Assembly (NCBI RefSeq): GCF_000313565.1
Contig: NZ_HE578923.1
Location: 371,445 to 435,444, forward strand
Source: Dielma fastidiosa
GTDB lineage: Bacteria > Bacillota_I > Bacilli_A > Erysipelotrichales > Erysipelotrichaceae
Length of the DNA stretch: 64,000 bases
Direction of reading: 5' to 3'
Shown here: positions 43,404-50,633 of the stretch, one piece after another
Layout of the letters: each line of letters opens with the position of its first letter
Position numbering within the stretch: the stretch's first letter is position 1
Program-made: the position numbers and the translations under genes
The notes under the pieces: model-generated
What the model saw: only the letters and a program-made list of their open reading frames with translations
The model's database searches: none
Told to the model about the DNA's origin: nothing

Positions 43404-45041
43404 ATGGATATCAAGGGGTTTTTGACTTTATTTGGAGGTTTGGCATTGTTTTTGTATGGTATGAAGATGATGTCTGATGGATTGGAGGCAGCCGCGGGTG
43501 ATCGTCTTCAGCTGATTCTTGAGAAGCTGACATCAAACCGCATTGTCGGTGTTTTGGTAGGCGCTGGCATCACGGCTGTAATTCAAAGCTCTTCCGCGAC
43601 AACGGTAATGGTTGTCGGCTTTGTGAATGCCGGTATGATGACATTGAAACAGGCGGTTTGGATTATCATGGGTGCCAATATTGGTACAACGGTAACCGGT
43701 CTGCTGATTGCGCTGGACATTGGCGCGATAGCACCGCTGTTTGCTTTTATCGGTGTCGTTTTAATAACCTTTATTAAAAAAGAAAAGGTACAGGATATCG
43801 GTGAGATCATCGCCGGTCTTGGTATCTTATTTATTGGTATGGATATGATGGGAGCAGCCATGCTGCCGCTTCGAGAATCACCATCTTTTATCGCGTTGAT
43901 GACTACCGTAGAAAATCCATTGCTGGGAATTTTGATCGGCCTTGTATTTACCGCTGTAATTCAAAGCTCATCAGCATCGATTGGCATCCTGCAGGCATTG
44001 GCAGCCAGCGGTTTAATTCCTTTGCATAGCGCGGCCTTTATTCTGTTCGGTCAGAATATCGGTACTTGTATTACTGCCTTTCTCGCATCCTTAAGCGCGA
44101 ATCGCAATGCGAAACGCACAACGATCGTTCACTTATTGTTTAATGTGATTGGTACGGTGATCTTTGTGCTGCTTTGTCTGGCAACGCCGCTGATATCAAT
44201 TATTGGCCGCTTGACGCCGGATAATCCAATGGCCCAGATCGCCAATCTGCATATTTTATTTAATGTCACAACGACGCTGATCCTGCTGCCATTTGGTGTG
44301 AAACTGGCAGAGTTGGCTATGGTGATCCTGCCGGTACACAATGACGAAAAAGAGGATCTGCTGAAGCCGCTTTATCTGGATGATCAGCATCTTGGCTCGG
44401 TAGCGATTGCCACAGCTCAGCTGAAGAAAGAAATAGTACATATGTTTGAAATCGTGCGCCGCAATGTGGATTATATTTTTGAGGCACTGGATCCGAAGGT
44501 TCGTTTCCAAAAGGAAAAAATTGAACGCAACGAAGCTAAAATCAACGCGCTGAATATTGAAATTACTGATTTTGTAGCAAAGGCATGTACATTAGAGATG
44601 TCAGCGGCTGATTCAATTAAAATCAACAGTTATTTTAAAATCAGCAATGATCTTGAACGCATTGATGATCATGTGATGAATTTAAAAGAATACATGGAAT
44701 TTTATCTGAATAAAGAGGTTGATTTTGATGAGGAAATACAGGCTCAGCTGAAGGAATTGTATTTACTGCTTAAGGAATGTTTAATGAAGCTTGGTGAAGA
44801 GTCTTTCTTTGACTATGAAGATAAGTATGAACTGATTGAACGTGATGAACAAAAGATGGATGATCTGACGTTCTATTACCGGGAGAAGCAGGTCAATGAT
44901 TTACGCAGCAAGCAGTGCAGTGCTAAAACGGTTGTTACTTATTCAGAGATGCTGACGGATATTGAAAGAATGTCTGATCATTTATTAAATATTGCCCAGG
45001 AATGCAACGGTTCACGGATATCATTAAAAATAGATGATTAA
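43404..45041 (+). CDS. Na/Pi cotransporter family protein with PhoU-like domain
   Basis: 545 aa. Two inverted transporter repeats carry the QSSSA motifs: AVIQSSSATTVMVVGF near 59 and AVIQSSSASIGILQAL near 190. A helical PhoU-like C-terminal domain follows (about 345-540). Imports phosphate with sodium, or acts in phosphate or anion homeostasis. TGAGAGGGACAAT precedes the ATG. Monocistronic with promoter and terminator. Confidence 0.9.
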   Translation: MDIKGFLTLFGGLALFLYGMKMMSDGLEAAAGDRLQLILEKLTSNRIVGVLVGAGITAVIQSSSATTVMVVGFVNAGMMTLKQAVWIIMGANIGTTVTGLLIALDIGAIAPLFAFIGVVLITFIKKEKVQDIGEIIAGLGILFIGMDMMGAAMLPLRESPSFIALMTTVENPLLGILIGLVFTAVIQSSSASIGILQALAASGLIPLHSAAFILFGQNIGTCITAFLASLSANRNAKRTTIVHLLFNVIGTVIFVLLCLATPLISIIGRLTPDNPMAQIANLHILFNVTTTLILLPFGVKLAELAMVILPVHNDEKEDLLKPLYLDDQHLGSVAIATAQLKKEIVHMFEIVRRNVDYIFEALDPKVRFQKEKIERNEAKINALNIEITDFVAKACTLEMSAADSIKINSYFKISNDLERIDDHVMNLKEYMEFYLNKEVDFDEEIQAQLKELYLLLKECLMKLGEESFFDYEDKYELIERDEQKMDDLTFYYREKQVNDLRSKQCSAKTVVTYSEMLTDIERMSDHLLNIAQECNGSRISLKIDD

Positions 45042-46009: not shown

Positions 46010-47368
46010 ATGCGTGAAACAGTGGAAGCTTTAAGGAATGGATTTAAAAAAGGCAAAATGCAGTCAGTAGAAGCGAGACAGAAAAATTTATTAAAATTAA
46101 AACATGCTTTGTTAAGCTATGAGCATGAATTATATAATGCTTTATATGAGGATTTAGGTAAATCTGAATTTGAAAGCTTTGAAACTGAGTTTGGTATTTT
46201 AATGATGGAAATTAATGAGGCGGTGAAGCATTGCAAAGCGTGGAGCCGCTGTAAACGGGTAGGTACGCCGTTAATGCTTATGCCATCAAGCAGCATGATT
46301 CAGCCGGAGCCTTTGGGTGTTGTTTTAGTAATGTCACCATGGAATTATCCGCTTCAGCTCTCTATTGCGCCGTTAGTTGCATCGATGAGTGCCGGCAACT
46401 GTACGCTGATTAAGCCAAGCAGTTACTCGCCTTCAGTATCGGCAGTGCTGAAAAAAATGATTAATGAAAACTTTGATTTTGAGATTGTCAGAGTCATCGA
46501 AGGCGGCCGCGAGGTGAATGAGGCAGTCCTGAAGGAACGCTTTGACCATATCTTTTTTACTGGCAGTGTTCATGTGGGAAAAGTTGTTATGCGCGCGGCA
46601 GCGGAAACATTAACGCCGCTGACCCTTGAATTGGGCGGGAAGAGTCCGTGTATCGTAGCGGCTGATGCCGATTTGAAAATGGCTGCCAAGCGCATCATCT
46701 GGGGTAAGGCAATGAACTGCGGACAGACATGTGTGGCGCCGGATACCTTGTTTGTTCATGAATCAGTGAAGGATCAATTGATTGAAGCAATGAAACAAAG
46801 CATTCACGAATTCTATCCGCAGGGCTGTCTAGCTTCACCTATCTATGGCAAAATTGTTAATCAGAAGCATTTTGACCGTTTGTGCGGTTATTTAAAAGAA
46901 GGACGTATTCTAACCGGCGGTCATATAGACCGTGAGGCACATAAGATTGAACTGACCTTAATCGATGGCTTAAGTGAAAATGATGAGCTTTTAAAAGAGG
47001 AAATCTTTGGCCCGATACTGCCTGTTCTGACGTATCAGGATATTGAGGAAGTATTCGATTATGTAAGAGCGCATGAAAAACCGCTGGCAGCATATCTGTT
47101 TACTAATGACCGTGATCTTCAAAAGCATTTCCGCAAAGATCTGAGCTTTGGCGGCGGCTGTATCAATACGACCTTATTGCACCTTTCCAACTCGAAGCTG
47201 GGCTTTGGCGGGGTAGGCAGCAGCGGCATGGGACAATATCATGGTTATCGCGGCTTCTGTGAGCTCTCTCATTTTAAGAGTATCCTGAAAAAAAGCCGGT
47301 TAGAAGCACCGGTACAATATCCGCCTTACGGCAATAAGCTTAAACTGATGAAATTCTTTATGAAATAG
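46010..47368 (+). CDS. aldehyde dehydrogenase (class 3-like)
   Basis: 452 aa NAD(P)-dependent aldehyde dehydrogenase of the membrane-associated/short class. It has WNYPLQLSIAPLVASMSAGN, the general-base glutamate in LELGGKSP and the catalytic cysteine in NCGQTCVAPD (about 238). The C-terminus is SSGMGQYHGYRGFCELSH. CGGAGGTATTCT precedes ATG 46010; an in-frame upstream ATG at 45947 has no site. Substrate probably a medium- or long-chain aldehyde. Confidence 0.9.
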   Translation: MRETVEALRNGFKKGKMQSVEARQKNLLKLKHALLSYEHELYNALYEDLGKSEFESFETEFGILMMEINEAVKHCKAWSRCKRVGTPLMLMPSSSMIQPEPLGVVLVMSPWNYPLQLSIAPLVASMSAGNCTLIKPSSYSPSVSAVLKKMINENFDFEIVRVIEGGREVNEAVLKERFDHIFFTGSVHVGKVVMRAAAETLTPLTLELGGKSPCIVAADADLKMAAKRIIWGKAMNCGQTCVAPDTLFVHESVKDQLIEAMKQSIHEFYPQGCLASPIYGKIVNQKHFDRLCGYLKEGRILTGGHIDREAHKIELTLIDGLSENDELLKEEIFGPILPVLTYQDIEEVFDYVRAHEKPLAAYLFTNDRDLQKHFRKDLSFGGGCINTTLLHLSNSKLGFGGVGSSGMGQYHGYRGFCELSHFKSILKKSRLEAPVQYPPYGNKLKLMKFFMK

Positions 47369-47458
47369 AAAAGCGTCCTGCGACGCTTAAGCCTTTTATA
47401 TAAAAGGAGAGAGAATTGAATTACTTAATAGTAATGGGGCAGCTTCTATCTCTGCCTT
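47368..47458 (-). ncRNA. small RNA family, member 0
   Basis: Minus strand: -10 TATGAT (47470-47465). Hairpin CTGCC (47452-47456) with GGCAG (47438-47442). CCCC. Hairpin ATTACT (47420-47425) with AGTAAT (47430-47435). Linker TTCTCTCTCCTTTTATATAA. Final hairpin AAGCGTC/GACGCTT (47371-47388), then TTTTC. TTATGTGA (47511-47518) lies at the same distance from the -10 as in members 1 and 2. More divergent than the three members at 49-50 kb. Confidence 0.5.
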
Positions 47459-47536
47459 GCACTTATCATATCAAAAAGTTGTCGGTAACTCACAGTATAA
47501 AATTGGAAAATTATGTGAATTAGAAAAGAGGCATTT

Positions 47537-48514
47537 ATGAATATAAACTACTTGGCATACGATCCCTTTCTGGACAGTATTGAATATCTGCATATGCTTC
47601 AGGAACAGCAGGATTATCAAAAAGTCGCTCAATCAATTAAAAATAAATATGGGGTACATGATGAAGCGGTTGATATGGTTTTTAATCAGCTGCATAAGCT
47701 CAGTGCCCAGATTCAATTGGAGCTGAATGTTGATGAGCATCTGCTGCAGACTTATTTTGATAGTGATATGCCGCTGGCTTCAATGATGGTGCTCAATGCT
47801 GATCAGATTGAGGCGGAGAATGCAGATGCATACCGAGCGCAAATGGATGCCAATCTGAAATTATTCTCACAGGAAAAAGCCGATCGGCTTGAGCTTTTGG
47901 AAATGGCGGCACAGAGTAACGCAGTGCGCTGGCAATGGCTGAAAGTCTATCATGATCCGCTGCCTTATTATCATGAATTAAAAGGATTGCTGAATGAAAC
48001 AGCAGCCCTTATTATTAAACACATGGCAGATATAGAACCCCTGCTTGAACTGTATCAAGCTCACATTAACCCGCAGCGTTTCTATCAGATTGGCATCAAA
48101 TATGAAGAAAATTCAACACTAAATATCAGACCCTCGGTTTTTTCATGCAATCGAATCACCATATTCAATGACAGTGAGCGTAATGTCTATGATGTCCGTG
48201 ATGGGATTGCGATGATTTGGATCAAGCTGAATCAGCAGTGTTTTAATAAGGAAGAAGTTTTATTGGCCGCGAAGGCTATGGCTGATCCTTCTAAATTAGA
48301 AATATTAAGTGTATTAAAACAGGGACGCAGTTATGGACAGAAACTGGCTTGCAGATTAAATCTGACCACGGCTACGGTATCTTATCATATGAGCGCTTTG
48401 ATTAATGCTAACTTAATCACGATGGAAAAAGAAGGAACCCGCATCTATTACAGCATCAATGAGGAATCCGTGCGGGCTTATCTGAATGGTATTGAAGAAC
48501 TGCTTCTAAAATAG
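47537..48514 (+). CDS. ArsR-family regulator with large N-terminal domain
   Basis: 325 aa. The winged helix is C-terminal (about 243-320): LAAKAMADPSKLEILSVLKQG and NLTTATVSYHMSALINANLITME. The N-terminal 240 residues form a helical domain of unknown ligand. The start follows AAAAGAGGCATTT. It converges with the radical SAM gene and overlaps its end by 9 nt. Target unknown; the ALDH gene upstream is one candidate. Confidence 0.78.
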   Translation: MNINYLAYDPFLDSIEYLHMLQEQQDYQKVAQSIKNKYGVHDEAVDMVFNQLHKLSAQIQLELNVDEHLLQTYFDSDMPLASMMVLNADQIEAENADAYRAQMDANLKLFSQEKADRLELLEMAAQSNAVRWQWLKVYHDPLPYYHELKGLLNETAALIIKHMADIEPLLELYQAHINPQRFYQIGIKYEENSTLNIRPSVFSCNRITIFNDSERNVYDVRDGIAMIWIKLNQQCFNKEEVLLAAKAMADPSKLEILSVLKQGRSYGQKLACRLNLTTATVSYHMSALINANLITMEKEGTRIYYSINEESVRAYLNGIEELLLK

Positions 48515-49360
48515 TGAAAGCTGTTCATTCATGATCAAAAACTGCTGATAATCGGTATTGATATCTTTCATCCGCGGACGCAGCCATGAATATAACTGCT
48601 TTTTATACTCCTTATCAAGAGAACCTTTGGCGTAGAGCTGCATAAAGGTTCTTTTTAAATGCGGATATTGGCGTTCGATAAATGCCATAAACGCTTTTCT
48701 TGTTTCGCCTCTAAGATACATCGTACCGCAGGTAAAATAGTCAGCCTCATGAGCTAGCTGTAAGAGCGCTTCAAGATTTTCACGGCTGTCTGTCAGCATT
48801 GGAATGATCGGTATTGTGTGCAGTCCGGTTTTAACTTTTGAATCCCTGAAGGCACGCAGGGCCATGATTCGTCCCTGGATAGGTGACGCGTTAGGTTCCA
48901 TGATTTTGCGCAGCTCTTCATCAACGGTGTTGATAGAAAAAGCAACAATGACCGGTACTTTTTCAGCAAGCTCATCAAGCAGTGCCTTGTCTCGTAAAAT
49001 CAAGGCTGATTTAGTGGAAATGACACAGGGTGTAGCAGTTTCAATTAAAAGCTTCAATATTTCCGGCATCAGCTTCATTTCTGCCTCGATTGGCTGATAA
49101 GCATCACAGACGGTACCGATACCAATGATTTTATGCTTCCAGCTAGGGGCGGTTAGCTGAGAACGCAGCGCTTCAACAATATTGCTTTTCACATGCACAT
49201 GATCAAAAAAATGTCCGTCATCCTCTAAATAGCGGTGTGTGTACATGGCATAACAATACTGGCAGTGATGCGCACAGCCTCGATATGGATTCAATTCATA
49301 ATCATAGGGAAATCTACCCTTCGATTTAGTTAATGCATTGCGGCAGTGTATTTCATTCAT
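48506..49360 (-). CDS. SPL-related radical SAM protein
   Basis: 284 aa. The radical SAM cluster motif is CAHHCQYC (about C31, C35, C38) after YELNPYRGC, typical of the spore-photoproduct-lyase-related family of unknown substrate. GIGTVCDAYQPIE and STKSALILRD follow. The ATG at 49360 has AGGAGATTGCTT upstream; a TTG at 49366 overlaps this site. Monocistronic. Confidence 0.85.
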   Translation of the reverse strand: MNEIHCRNALTKSKGRFPYDYELNPYRGCAHHCQYCYAMYTHRYLEDDGHFFDHVHVKSNIVEALRSQLTAPSWKHKIIGIGTVCDAYQPIEAEMKLMPEILKLLIETATPCVISTKSALILRDKALLDELAEKVPVIVAFSINTVDEELRKIMEPNASPIQGRIMALRAFRDSKVKTGLHTIPIIPMLTDSRENLEALLQLAHEADYFTCGTMYLRGETRKAFMAFIERQYPHLKRTFMQLYAKGSLDKEYKKQLYSWLRPRMKDINTDYQQFLIMNEQLSLF

Positions 49361-49391
49361 AAGCAATCTCCTGATACCTTTAGTATAACAG

Positions 49392-49510
49392 AAAAAAGCA
49401 TCGCAGGGGAACGATGCTTTTTCAAATACTATTTATAAAAGGGATAGAATATGATTGAACATTATGGATAGGGATTGTCCATGTTCATCAGCAAGCTATT
49501 ATCCTTGCCT
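49392..49510 (-). ncRNA. small RNA family, member 1 (LhrC-like architecture)
   Basis: Minus strand: -10 TATACT (49522-49517), then hairpin CTTGC (49504-49508)/GCAAG (49491-49495). Hairpin GAACAT/ATGTTC with TGAT/ATCA extension (49452-49490) and a loop with ATCCC. Single-stranded TTCTATCCCTTTTATAAAT. Terminator GCATCG (49398-49403)/CGATGC (49412-49417) with loop TTCCCCTG and six T. Three C-rich exposed motifs could pair with AAGGGGA-type ribosome binding sites. Confidence 0.65.
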
Positions 49511-49550
49511 GAATATAGTATAGCCGAATTGTGTCAAAAGAAAACGTATG

Positions 49551-49570
49551 TATTTCGTGAAATTATGTGA
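49551..49570 (-). promoter_or_regulatory. activator box of small RNA member 1
   Basis: Plus strand TTTCGTGA (49553-49560) and TTATGTGA (49563-49570), 10 bp apart, starting 31 bases from the -10 edge (49522). Same placement at members 2 and 3. The phased direct repeat suggests an OmpR/PhoB-type response regulator. Confidence 0.55.
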
Positions 49571-49574
49571 TGAT

Positions 49575-49690
49575 GAATATAATGGGAAAAGCCTTGTGGG
49601 ATAGGCTTTTCCTCCAATAAAGAAACATGAAAGGGATAGAAATATGAATGAAACAGCAGTACAGCGAGGAATTACTGACTGCCTATTACC
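49575..49690 (-). ncRNA. degenerate small RNA family copy
   Basis: Keeps the linker TTCTATCCCTTTCATG (complement of 49630-49641), the distal hairpin GGAAAAGCCT/AGGCTTTTCC (49584-49612) with a TATCCCAC loop, a CAGTA/TACTG hairpin (49657-49677), and a CATACT -10-like box (49696-49691). It lacks the TTATGTGA box and a terminal T run, so it may be decayed. Confidence 0.35.
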
Positions 49691-49728
49691 AGTATGAACA
49701 ATAAAATTTGTTTTATACTATAAATATA

Positions 49729-49838
49729 CAAAAAACAACGGTTCATCACGCCGTTGTTCTTTGTTAAAATGAAAGGGATTAGAAAATGTTTTGAACATTC
49801 ATATTTGGGGTTGACTGTTCAAGCAGGTATTTCCTGCT
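49729..49838 (-). ncRNA. small RNA family, member 3
   Basis: Minus strand: -10 TATACT (49850-49845). Hairpin CCTGCT (49833-49838)/AGCAGG (49822-49827). Hairpin TTGAACA (49791-49797)/TGTTCAA (49816-49822) with a CAACCCC loop. Linker TTCTAATCCCTTTCATTTT. Terminator AACAACGG/CCGTTGTT (49734-49758), then six T. Repeats TTATGG at 49881 and 49891 stand at the family's activator position. The stems differ in sequence from members 1 and 2 but keep pairing. Confidence 0.6.
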
Positions 49839-49919
49839 ACTATTAGTATAAAAGATTTATTTCGTTGCAATATGCCAGAATTATGGTTTATTATGGGAAT
49901 TAGATAAAGGAGAGTAATC

Positions 49920-50360
49920 ATGGAATGGAAAATACCAAAAGCTGCTAAAGTATATGAAGCCTATTCAGCAATTGCTGATGAGCGGATCACAATGCATGAG
50001 AATTGGGCCGAAGCTGTCTCTAGTGATGGTTCAAAAAAGTATGAGATTGTATGGGATCAAAACACCTATGCCAGTTCAGACAATGCCTCTTACTGGCAGA
50101 AAACGCTGGGATATCCTCTGCTTGCGGTTTTGATGCTGCAGGGAAGACTCACTTATGATCCAGCGATTGCTGAACAATTCAAGGGTATCCCCTGGAAAAA
50201 GATTAATAAGGAATATAAGAATGATTATGATCTGGCAGCCGCTTCAGTTTTGCAAACGATGCAAGATCCGCAGCGTCTTCAAGAAAGCGCAGAACAGATT
50301 ATCAAGCAGTGTGAGCAGTTAGATTTAAACTATAAAAGAAAGCTGAATAAAGCAAAGTGA
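49920..50360 (+). CDS. conserved hypothetical protein
   Basis: 146 aa, soluble, rich in aromatic and charged residues (EWKIPKAAKVYEAYSAIAD, YWQKTLGYPLLAVLMLQGRL). No catalytic motif recognised. AAAGGAGAGTAATC gives a strong start. It lies between two small RNA genes that run antisense to its transcript direction: member 3's activator box is in its 5' region and member 2's terminator overlaps its stop. Confidence 0.65.
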   Translation: MEWKIPKAAKVYEAYSAIADERITMHENWAEAVSSDGSKKYEIVWDQNTYASSDNASYWQKTLGYPLLAVLMLQGRLTYDPAIAEQFKGIPWKKINKEYKNDYDLAAASVLQTMQDPQRLQESAEQIIKQCEQLDLNYKRKLNKAK

Positions 50361-50480
50361 GCGTCAGGGGAAACGCTCACTTTGTTGTTTTAGGATTATT
50401 TATAAGGGGATAGAATTTGAATTTCAATTAGGGATGATTGAAATTCATGCAAGATTTAAATTATATTGTACCTCTTGCAT
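50346..50480 (-). ncRNA. small RNA family, member 2
   Basis: Minus strand: -10 TATACT (50492-50487). Hairpin CTTGCAT (50474-50480)/ATGCAAG (50447-50453). Perfect 10-bp hairpin GAATTTCAAT/ATTGAAATTC (50419-50446) with loop CATCCCTA. Linker TTCTATCCCCTTATAA. Terminator hairpin GTGAGCG/CGCTCAC with loop TTTCCCCTGA (50352-50385). ATATGTGA (50523-50530) and TTATGTGA (50533-50540) form the activator box at the same 31-base distance as member 1. Confidence 0.65.
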
Positions 50481-50633
50481 GATTAAAGTATAGGATAAAG
50501 ATACCGCAGCACTATCATAAAAATATGTGAAGTTATGTGAGCTCTAAAAAATAAAATTCATTTACCTATGATTGTTACATAAATAGTGTTACAATCAATG
50601 ATATAGTAAGTTCACAAAGGAAAGGTGAACACT

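Follow-up and report, generated by a model that had tools for sequence, protein, structure and literature searches.

A multicopy small RNA family with repeated C-rich motifs and a fixed-spacing promoter box, likely controlled by a CssR-like regulator, in Dielma fastidiosa and its relatives

Four minus-strand units and one degenerate copy in a 64-kb stretch of the Dielma fastidiosa genome (the window, i.e., the whole stretch of DNA analyzed) belong to a multicopy sRNA family that recurs in most sampled genera of the bacterial family. Sequence comparison establishes the predicted genes, their covarying structure, and a promoter with a box at fixed spacing, and it supports control by an OmpR-type response regulator; it suggests less firmly that this regulator is CssR, that the signal is stress, and that the RNAs block translation. 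On balance, we consider it probable that these are trans-acting sRNAs, which would be driven by an OmpR-family regulator, most likely the CssR-like one, and would occlude Shine-Dalgarno (SD) regions under secretion or envelope stress.

Four sRNA genes and a remnant in the window

The sequence-only reading of this DNA had placed four sRNA units on the minus strand, together with a degenerate fifth copy; the four units were recovered where it had put them, and the fifth copy was recovered as well. Two covariance models were used: R1, built from U2 to U4 on an N-padded alignment in which loops and linkers were partly shortened to keep the stems in register, and R2, built from 46 matches. The predicted features are as follows.

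47365..47458, minus strand: U1 sRNA, divergent member with CU-rich core UUCUCUCUCC (R2 E=6.3e-5; fold z -1.9)
47465..47470, minus strand: U1 -10 TATGAT, 49 nt from the box start
47504..47519, minus strand: U1 activator box TTCACATAATTTTCCA (ungapped promoter alignment)
49390..49510, minus strand: U2 sRNA (R1/R2 match; fold z -3.8)
49517..49522, minus strand: U2 -10 TATACT
49556..49571, minus strand: U2 activator box ATCACATAATTTCACG (ungapped promoter alignment)
49581..49720, minus strand: degenerate fifth copy, core TTTCTATCCC and terminator retained (R2 E=8.2e-5)
49728..49838, minus strand: U3 sRNA (R1/R2 match; fold z -4.8)
49845..49850, minus strand: U3 -10 TATACT
49884..49899, minus strand: U3 activator box TTCCCATAATAAACCA (ungapped promoter alignment)
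50351..50480, minus strand: U4 sRNA (R1/R2 match; fold z -9.4)
50487..50492, minus strand: U4 -10 TATACT
50526..50541, minus strand: U4 activator box CTCACATAACTTCACA (ungapped promoter alignment)

U1 to U4 share one layout, in which box and -10 are followed by a pair of hairpins, by UUCUAUCCC(C)UU as a single strand, and by a terminator, and in all four the predicted +1 is an A (47458, 49510, 49838, and 50480) 7 nt past the -10. The parts of U2 run in the order hairpin 1, hairpin 2 with a CCC loop, core UUCUAUCCC, and a terminator with a CCCC loop. The exposure of CCC stretches in the loops of members 1 to 3, also claimed earlier, was borne out only in part: the CCCC of U1 lies between its two hairpins rather than in a loop, and the terminator loop of U3 is not C-rich. 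U4 too has CCC, in its second-hairpin and terminator loops.

Compared with shuffles, U2 to U4 fold clearly better and U1 modestly so. In the window search, R2 returned E-values of 2e-18, 4e-12, and 5e-15 for U2, U3, and U4, which are not independent because these units were in its training, and of 6e-5 and 8e-5 for U1 and the remnant, both outside the training. The sequence read upstream of the degenerate copy holds no box of its own. U1 and U4 are both convergent with opposite-strand genes, the terminator of U4 meeting the plus-strand ORF 49920-50360 at its 3' end, and a radical SAM gene begins about 24 nt past the end of U2. An Rfam 15 scan of the window left U1 to U4 without a match above threshold; its sole match was a ZMP/ZTP riboswitch (RF01750, 26714-26792, 55 bits).

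Covarying stems around a conserved unpaired core

When 46 members, 40 of them distinct, are aligned, compensatory changes occur in each of the 21 modeled pairs, which upholds the earlier claim that the stems differ in sequence and still pair. Shuffling lowers the share of paired cells from 95.4% to 60% and the covariation score from 0.84 to 0.21; fitting the alignment to the model favors the structure, but slid versions of the structure still score only 0.05-0.14. RNAalifold recovered the same three helices from this alignment. Across 71 distinct members, the stems vary freely and each position of the unpaired core TTCTATCCCCTT is 92-100% conserved, a figure that is somewhat overstated for the nine bases TTCTATCCC because the search motif that gathered the members tolerated one mismatch there. 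Two to four CCC runs occur in 70 of these 71 members, and the predicted RNA lengths are 90-135 nt. Two further features were considered and rejected: a pseudoknot linking the loop of hairpin 1 to the core (no excess over composition; p<0.05 for 0 of 53 unique loops) and an encoded peptide (SD-preceded ORF in only 10 of 71 members).

Distribution across the bacterial family

Covariance searches, the check proposed along with the sequence-only reading, found many homologues in addition to this strong covariation. R1 matched 107 of 196 same-family genomes at E<=1 (59 at E<=0.01), spanning 45 of 60 genera and often in several tandem copies. In D. fastidiosa itself, R2 recognized seven copies at E<=0.005, i.e., U2, U3, U4, the degenerate copy, two further copies in tandem on contig 2, and one on contig 7 that has no recognizable box; U1, recognized in the window-only search, brings the genome total to eight. 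R2 was also run on 395 genomes sampled across the class, where 30 of the 36 same-family genomes matched at E<=0.01; spread beyond the bacterial family was rejected, since matches elsewhere in this sample are weak and, where read, box-less. A box-less sRNA-like locus outside the family (L204 in genome G438), with a hairpin, a CCCCUA loop, a CU-rich single strand, and a terminator, is possibly a distant relative or an analogue.

As to gene neighborhoods, a HIT-family (histidine triad) gene lies directly downstream of a type-A unit in at least eight genomes of several genera (L220, L236, L238-L242, and L245). The cell-wall genes murF-ddl-alr are found near sRNA loci L063, L064, L066, L070, L072, L073, and L075, in some of them with a Na/Pi cotransporter gene in between; the window holds such a gene at 43404-45041. 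Synteny via the radical SAM neighbor was discarded, this gene being poorly conserved and unlinked to the units.

A promoter box at fixed spacing

The promoters of U1 to U4 align ungapped, with a TTCACATAATTTCACA-type box that starts exactly 49 nt upstream of the -10, and the identical placement of the activator box, first proposed for the window, extends across many genera. With spacings of 48-50 scanned, 69 of 71 distinct members have 49 and two have 50; an earlier, wider scan (46-53 allowed) gave 49 in 39 of 41. In the logo of 39 promoters, TCACATAATT and TTCACA stand out as strong half-sites, and a third, weaker one follows them; a G is seen two bases ahead of the -10, and a -35 consensus is absent.

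The promoter-only pattern (box plus -10) returned 70 sites in the 196 genomes versus a single one in the reversed control. When the loci picked by the RNA model were left out and promoter-only sites were counted, a terminator was found within 200 nt downstream of 38 of 49 distinct sites, versus 151 of 2,000 random positions (7.6%; p=1.5e-31). The RNAs behind these 38 sites are nearly all CU-rich sRNAs, many of type A and the rest with other cores, e.g., CTTTCTCCCTTTC and CCTTCCTTCCTT. A second sRNA type with the same box has UUUUCCCCUC in hairpin 2 and an unpaired CAUACUUUCUCCCUUUC and is often in tandem (L221, L250, L251, and L264 in G051, G042, G014, and G087), and a third type carries CCUUCCUUCCUUGUAG ahead of the terminator (L233, L234, and L246 in G064, G009, and G008).

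A few promoter sites head protein genes, namely that of a zinc-ribbon membrane protein in D. fastidiosa and ftsH in another genome. The former, with a perfectly spaced box and -10 (G000 C5:65500-65552; L002/L235), is the clearest protein-coding site in D. fastidiosa; ftsH (L095, G125 C1:481662) is preceded by a box 50 nt from the -10, adjoining a CIRCE-like repeat (TTAGCACTC...). A strong box also lies upstream of a Ppx/GppA gene.

A CssR-like protein as the likely regulator

The D. fastidiosa genome encodes about 16 OmpR-type regulators. One of them, encoded at C5:178882-179538 next to a histidine kinase with HAMP, HisKA, and HATPase domains, is 51% identical to what we take to be the Bacillus subtilis CssR sequence, versus at most 35% for the other OmpR-type regulators of this genome. 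Of the 196 genomes, 179 encode an orthologue, almost always a single one, and the recognition helix RVVDDTLRRLRKKLP is invariant in 30 of 30. A box or half-site (TCACATAAT/TTCACATA) was found within 160 nt before the CssR-like gene in 7 of 30 genomes, which come from about five genera only and thus are not independent, versus 3 of 857 control genes; the D. fastidiosa gene has no box upstream. For B. subtilis, the CssR box has been published as TTTTCACA (PMC6749698), and a box of this type is present in the logo of the family promoters. Taken together, the single-copy spread, the invariant helix, the own-gene boxes, the published CssR box, and the identity to CssR make it likely that the CssR-like regulator controls the sRNA promoters. 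The LhrC-type, response-regulator-driven sRNA regulon proposed earlier is thus supported by the homologues, the covariation, and the constant box spacing, and its reading as an envelope-stress response gains some support because the CssR-like gene carries the same box in several genomes and this box is of the type published for CssR. The classic CssR target htrA has weak, degenerate box-like sites only, the enrichment of which is biased because the controls include in-operon upstreams, and we do not count it as a clear regulon member.

The same sRNA family and mechanism might instead serve another OmpR-family regulator, e.g., a PhoP/PhoB-like one responding to phosphate limitation. PhoP boxes are TTAACA/TTCACA repeats, which resemble the sRNA box; a Na/Pi cotransporter is encoded near an sRNA in the window and in three other genomes, the Ppx/GppA gene is headed by one strong box, and about 16 candidate regulators are at hand in D. 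fastidiosa. However, it is the CssR-like gene that is near-universal and single-copy, has an invariant helix, and carries a box of its own in several genera, whereas no convincing box was found upstream of the other regulator genes of D. fastidiosa, and all seven of its regulators tested fall below the PhoB curated cutoff. We regard such a substitution as unlikely, if worth keeping in mind.

Proposed mechanism and targets

In the model we favor, an OmpR-family response regulator, most likely the CssR-like protein with its adjacent kinase, would bind direct TTCACAT(AAT) half-sites 10 bp apart, at about -61 to -46, and activate promoters that have a -10 and lack a recognizable -35. The resulting 90-135-nt RNAs would expose two to four C-rich stretches, i.e., the near-invariant UUCUAUCCCCUU and usually the loops of the second hairpin and the terminator, which may pair with SD regions (complement AAGGGGAUAGAA) to block translation during secretion or envelope stress. 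Occlusion of the ribosome-binding site is the most likely action because the near-invariant core complements AAGGGGAUAGAA. Target binding by LhrC, RNAIII, RsaE, SprD, and FsrA involves a UCCC motif (PMC4132741), and the csRNAs carry an unpaired anti-SD plus anti-start-codon stretch (PMC3091779). In the present family, an anti-start codon 4-11 nt from the anti-SD core occurs in 41 of 71 members, and its universal presence as in csRNAs was rejected on this count. A target scan of 653 genes (0.9 Mb of D. fastidiosa) proposed candidates such as a lactose/cellobiose-type PTS IIB gene with AAAGGGGATGGAATTTATG; it delivered no clear functional class and no significant enrichment for exported proteins, and neither these nor PTS genes were retained as a target class.

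The repetition of the motif within each RNA, the nearly invariant core family-wide, and target scans that gave no class would also suit RNAs that mainly titrate an RNA-binding protein via repeated C-rich or purine-loop motifs instead of base pairing. We know of no candidate RNA-binding protein for such a role here. Titration appears improbable, given that, in low-GC Gram-positives, those C-rich sRNAs that have been characterized pair with translation initiation regions (PMC4132741, PMC3091779). It is hardly probable either that the units serve as riboswitch-like, cis-acting leaders or attenuators for downstream genes, e.g., the HIT-family gene, which directly follows a type-A unit in at least eight genomes, or the radical SAM gene close to the end of U2: each tandem copy has its own promoter and terminator, downstream genes vary between genomes, U1 and U4 face opposite-strand genes, and what is conserved is a short single-stranded core rather than an aptamer. 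A chance assembly of unrelated terminators and CU-rich sequence, for which low-complexity, AT-rich intergenic DNA and the modest fold of U1 alone could be invoked, is refuted by the R1 matches, the covariation, the promoter-only sites, the 49-nt spacing, and the terminator excess.

Tentatively, the CssR-type secretion-stress regulator might act mainly via RNA across the bacterial family, its strongest and nearly exclusive sites driving diverse CU-rich sRNAs (type A and several others); if true, the CssR-type stress response would be post-transcriptional rather than protease-based. A multicopy family found in most sampled genera under one regulator box is a concrete Rfam candidate, and the box-based promoter pattern offers a ready route to other sRNA types.

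Comparison with known systems

The csRNAs of streptococci (CiaRH dependent, RF02379) likewise come in several copies per genome, have promoters that are the strongest under their OmpR-family regulator and carry direct-repeat boxes, and consist of a hairpin, an unpaired anti-SD stretch, and a terminator (PMC3091779). Their model has no match in the window, and the best homologue scores 35.4 bits versus a cutoff of 57 (E 0.63). The csRNA box TTTAAG-N5-TTTAAG (NTTAAG-N5-TTTAAG) ends 10 nt upstream of the -10, a distance at which the family promoters show no such repeat; their TTCACATAATTTCACA box starts 49 nt away, and its TTCACAT half-sites have a 10-bp period, the second ending about 33 nt upstream of the -10. 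Unlike the csRNAs, the family has an extra C-loop hairpin, and its anti-start codon is not constant.

LhrC1-5 of Listeria (LisRK dependent, RF00616) are also multicopy. Their response-regulator element is located upstream of about -53, loops and single strand carry UCCC at three sites, and the RNAs are linked to envelope stress (PMC4132741). Several copies, repeated exposed C-rich sites, and a shared regulator element, the hallmarks of this functional kind, are all present in our family; core sequence and layout differ, and the LhrC model matched neither the window nor 20 homologue loci. The Listeria parallel of the sequence-only reading therefore stands as an analogy, not as homology. A genome-wide RF00616 search, run without a positive control, carries less weight than the window and 20-locus searches. 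RsaE/RoxS (RF01820) resembles the family as an sRNA with C-rich anti-SD motifs under a two-component regulator; it is not tandem, and its model reached 29.1 bits versus a cutoff of 79.

The known CssRS regulon of B. subtilis comprises htrA, htrB, and cssRS, and to our knowledge no sRNA, whereas the strongest sites of the present family are almost all sRNA genes. What the two have in common is a CssR box of the TTTTCACA type (PMC6749698), alongside the 51% identity of the regulators given above. Neither the open-access literature nor Rfam 15 yielded a described sRNA family for these bacteria, and we view the present one as an RNA family in its own right, whose functional kind is known and whose regulator link is likely new. 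The csRNAs under CiaR, LhrC under LisR, and the D. fastidiosa family would then exemplify a testable convergence on repeated anti-SD sRNAs under an envelope-linked response regulator.
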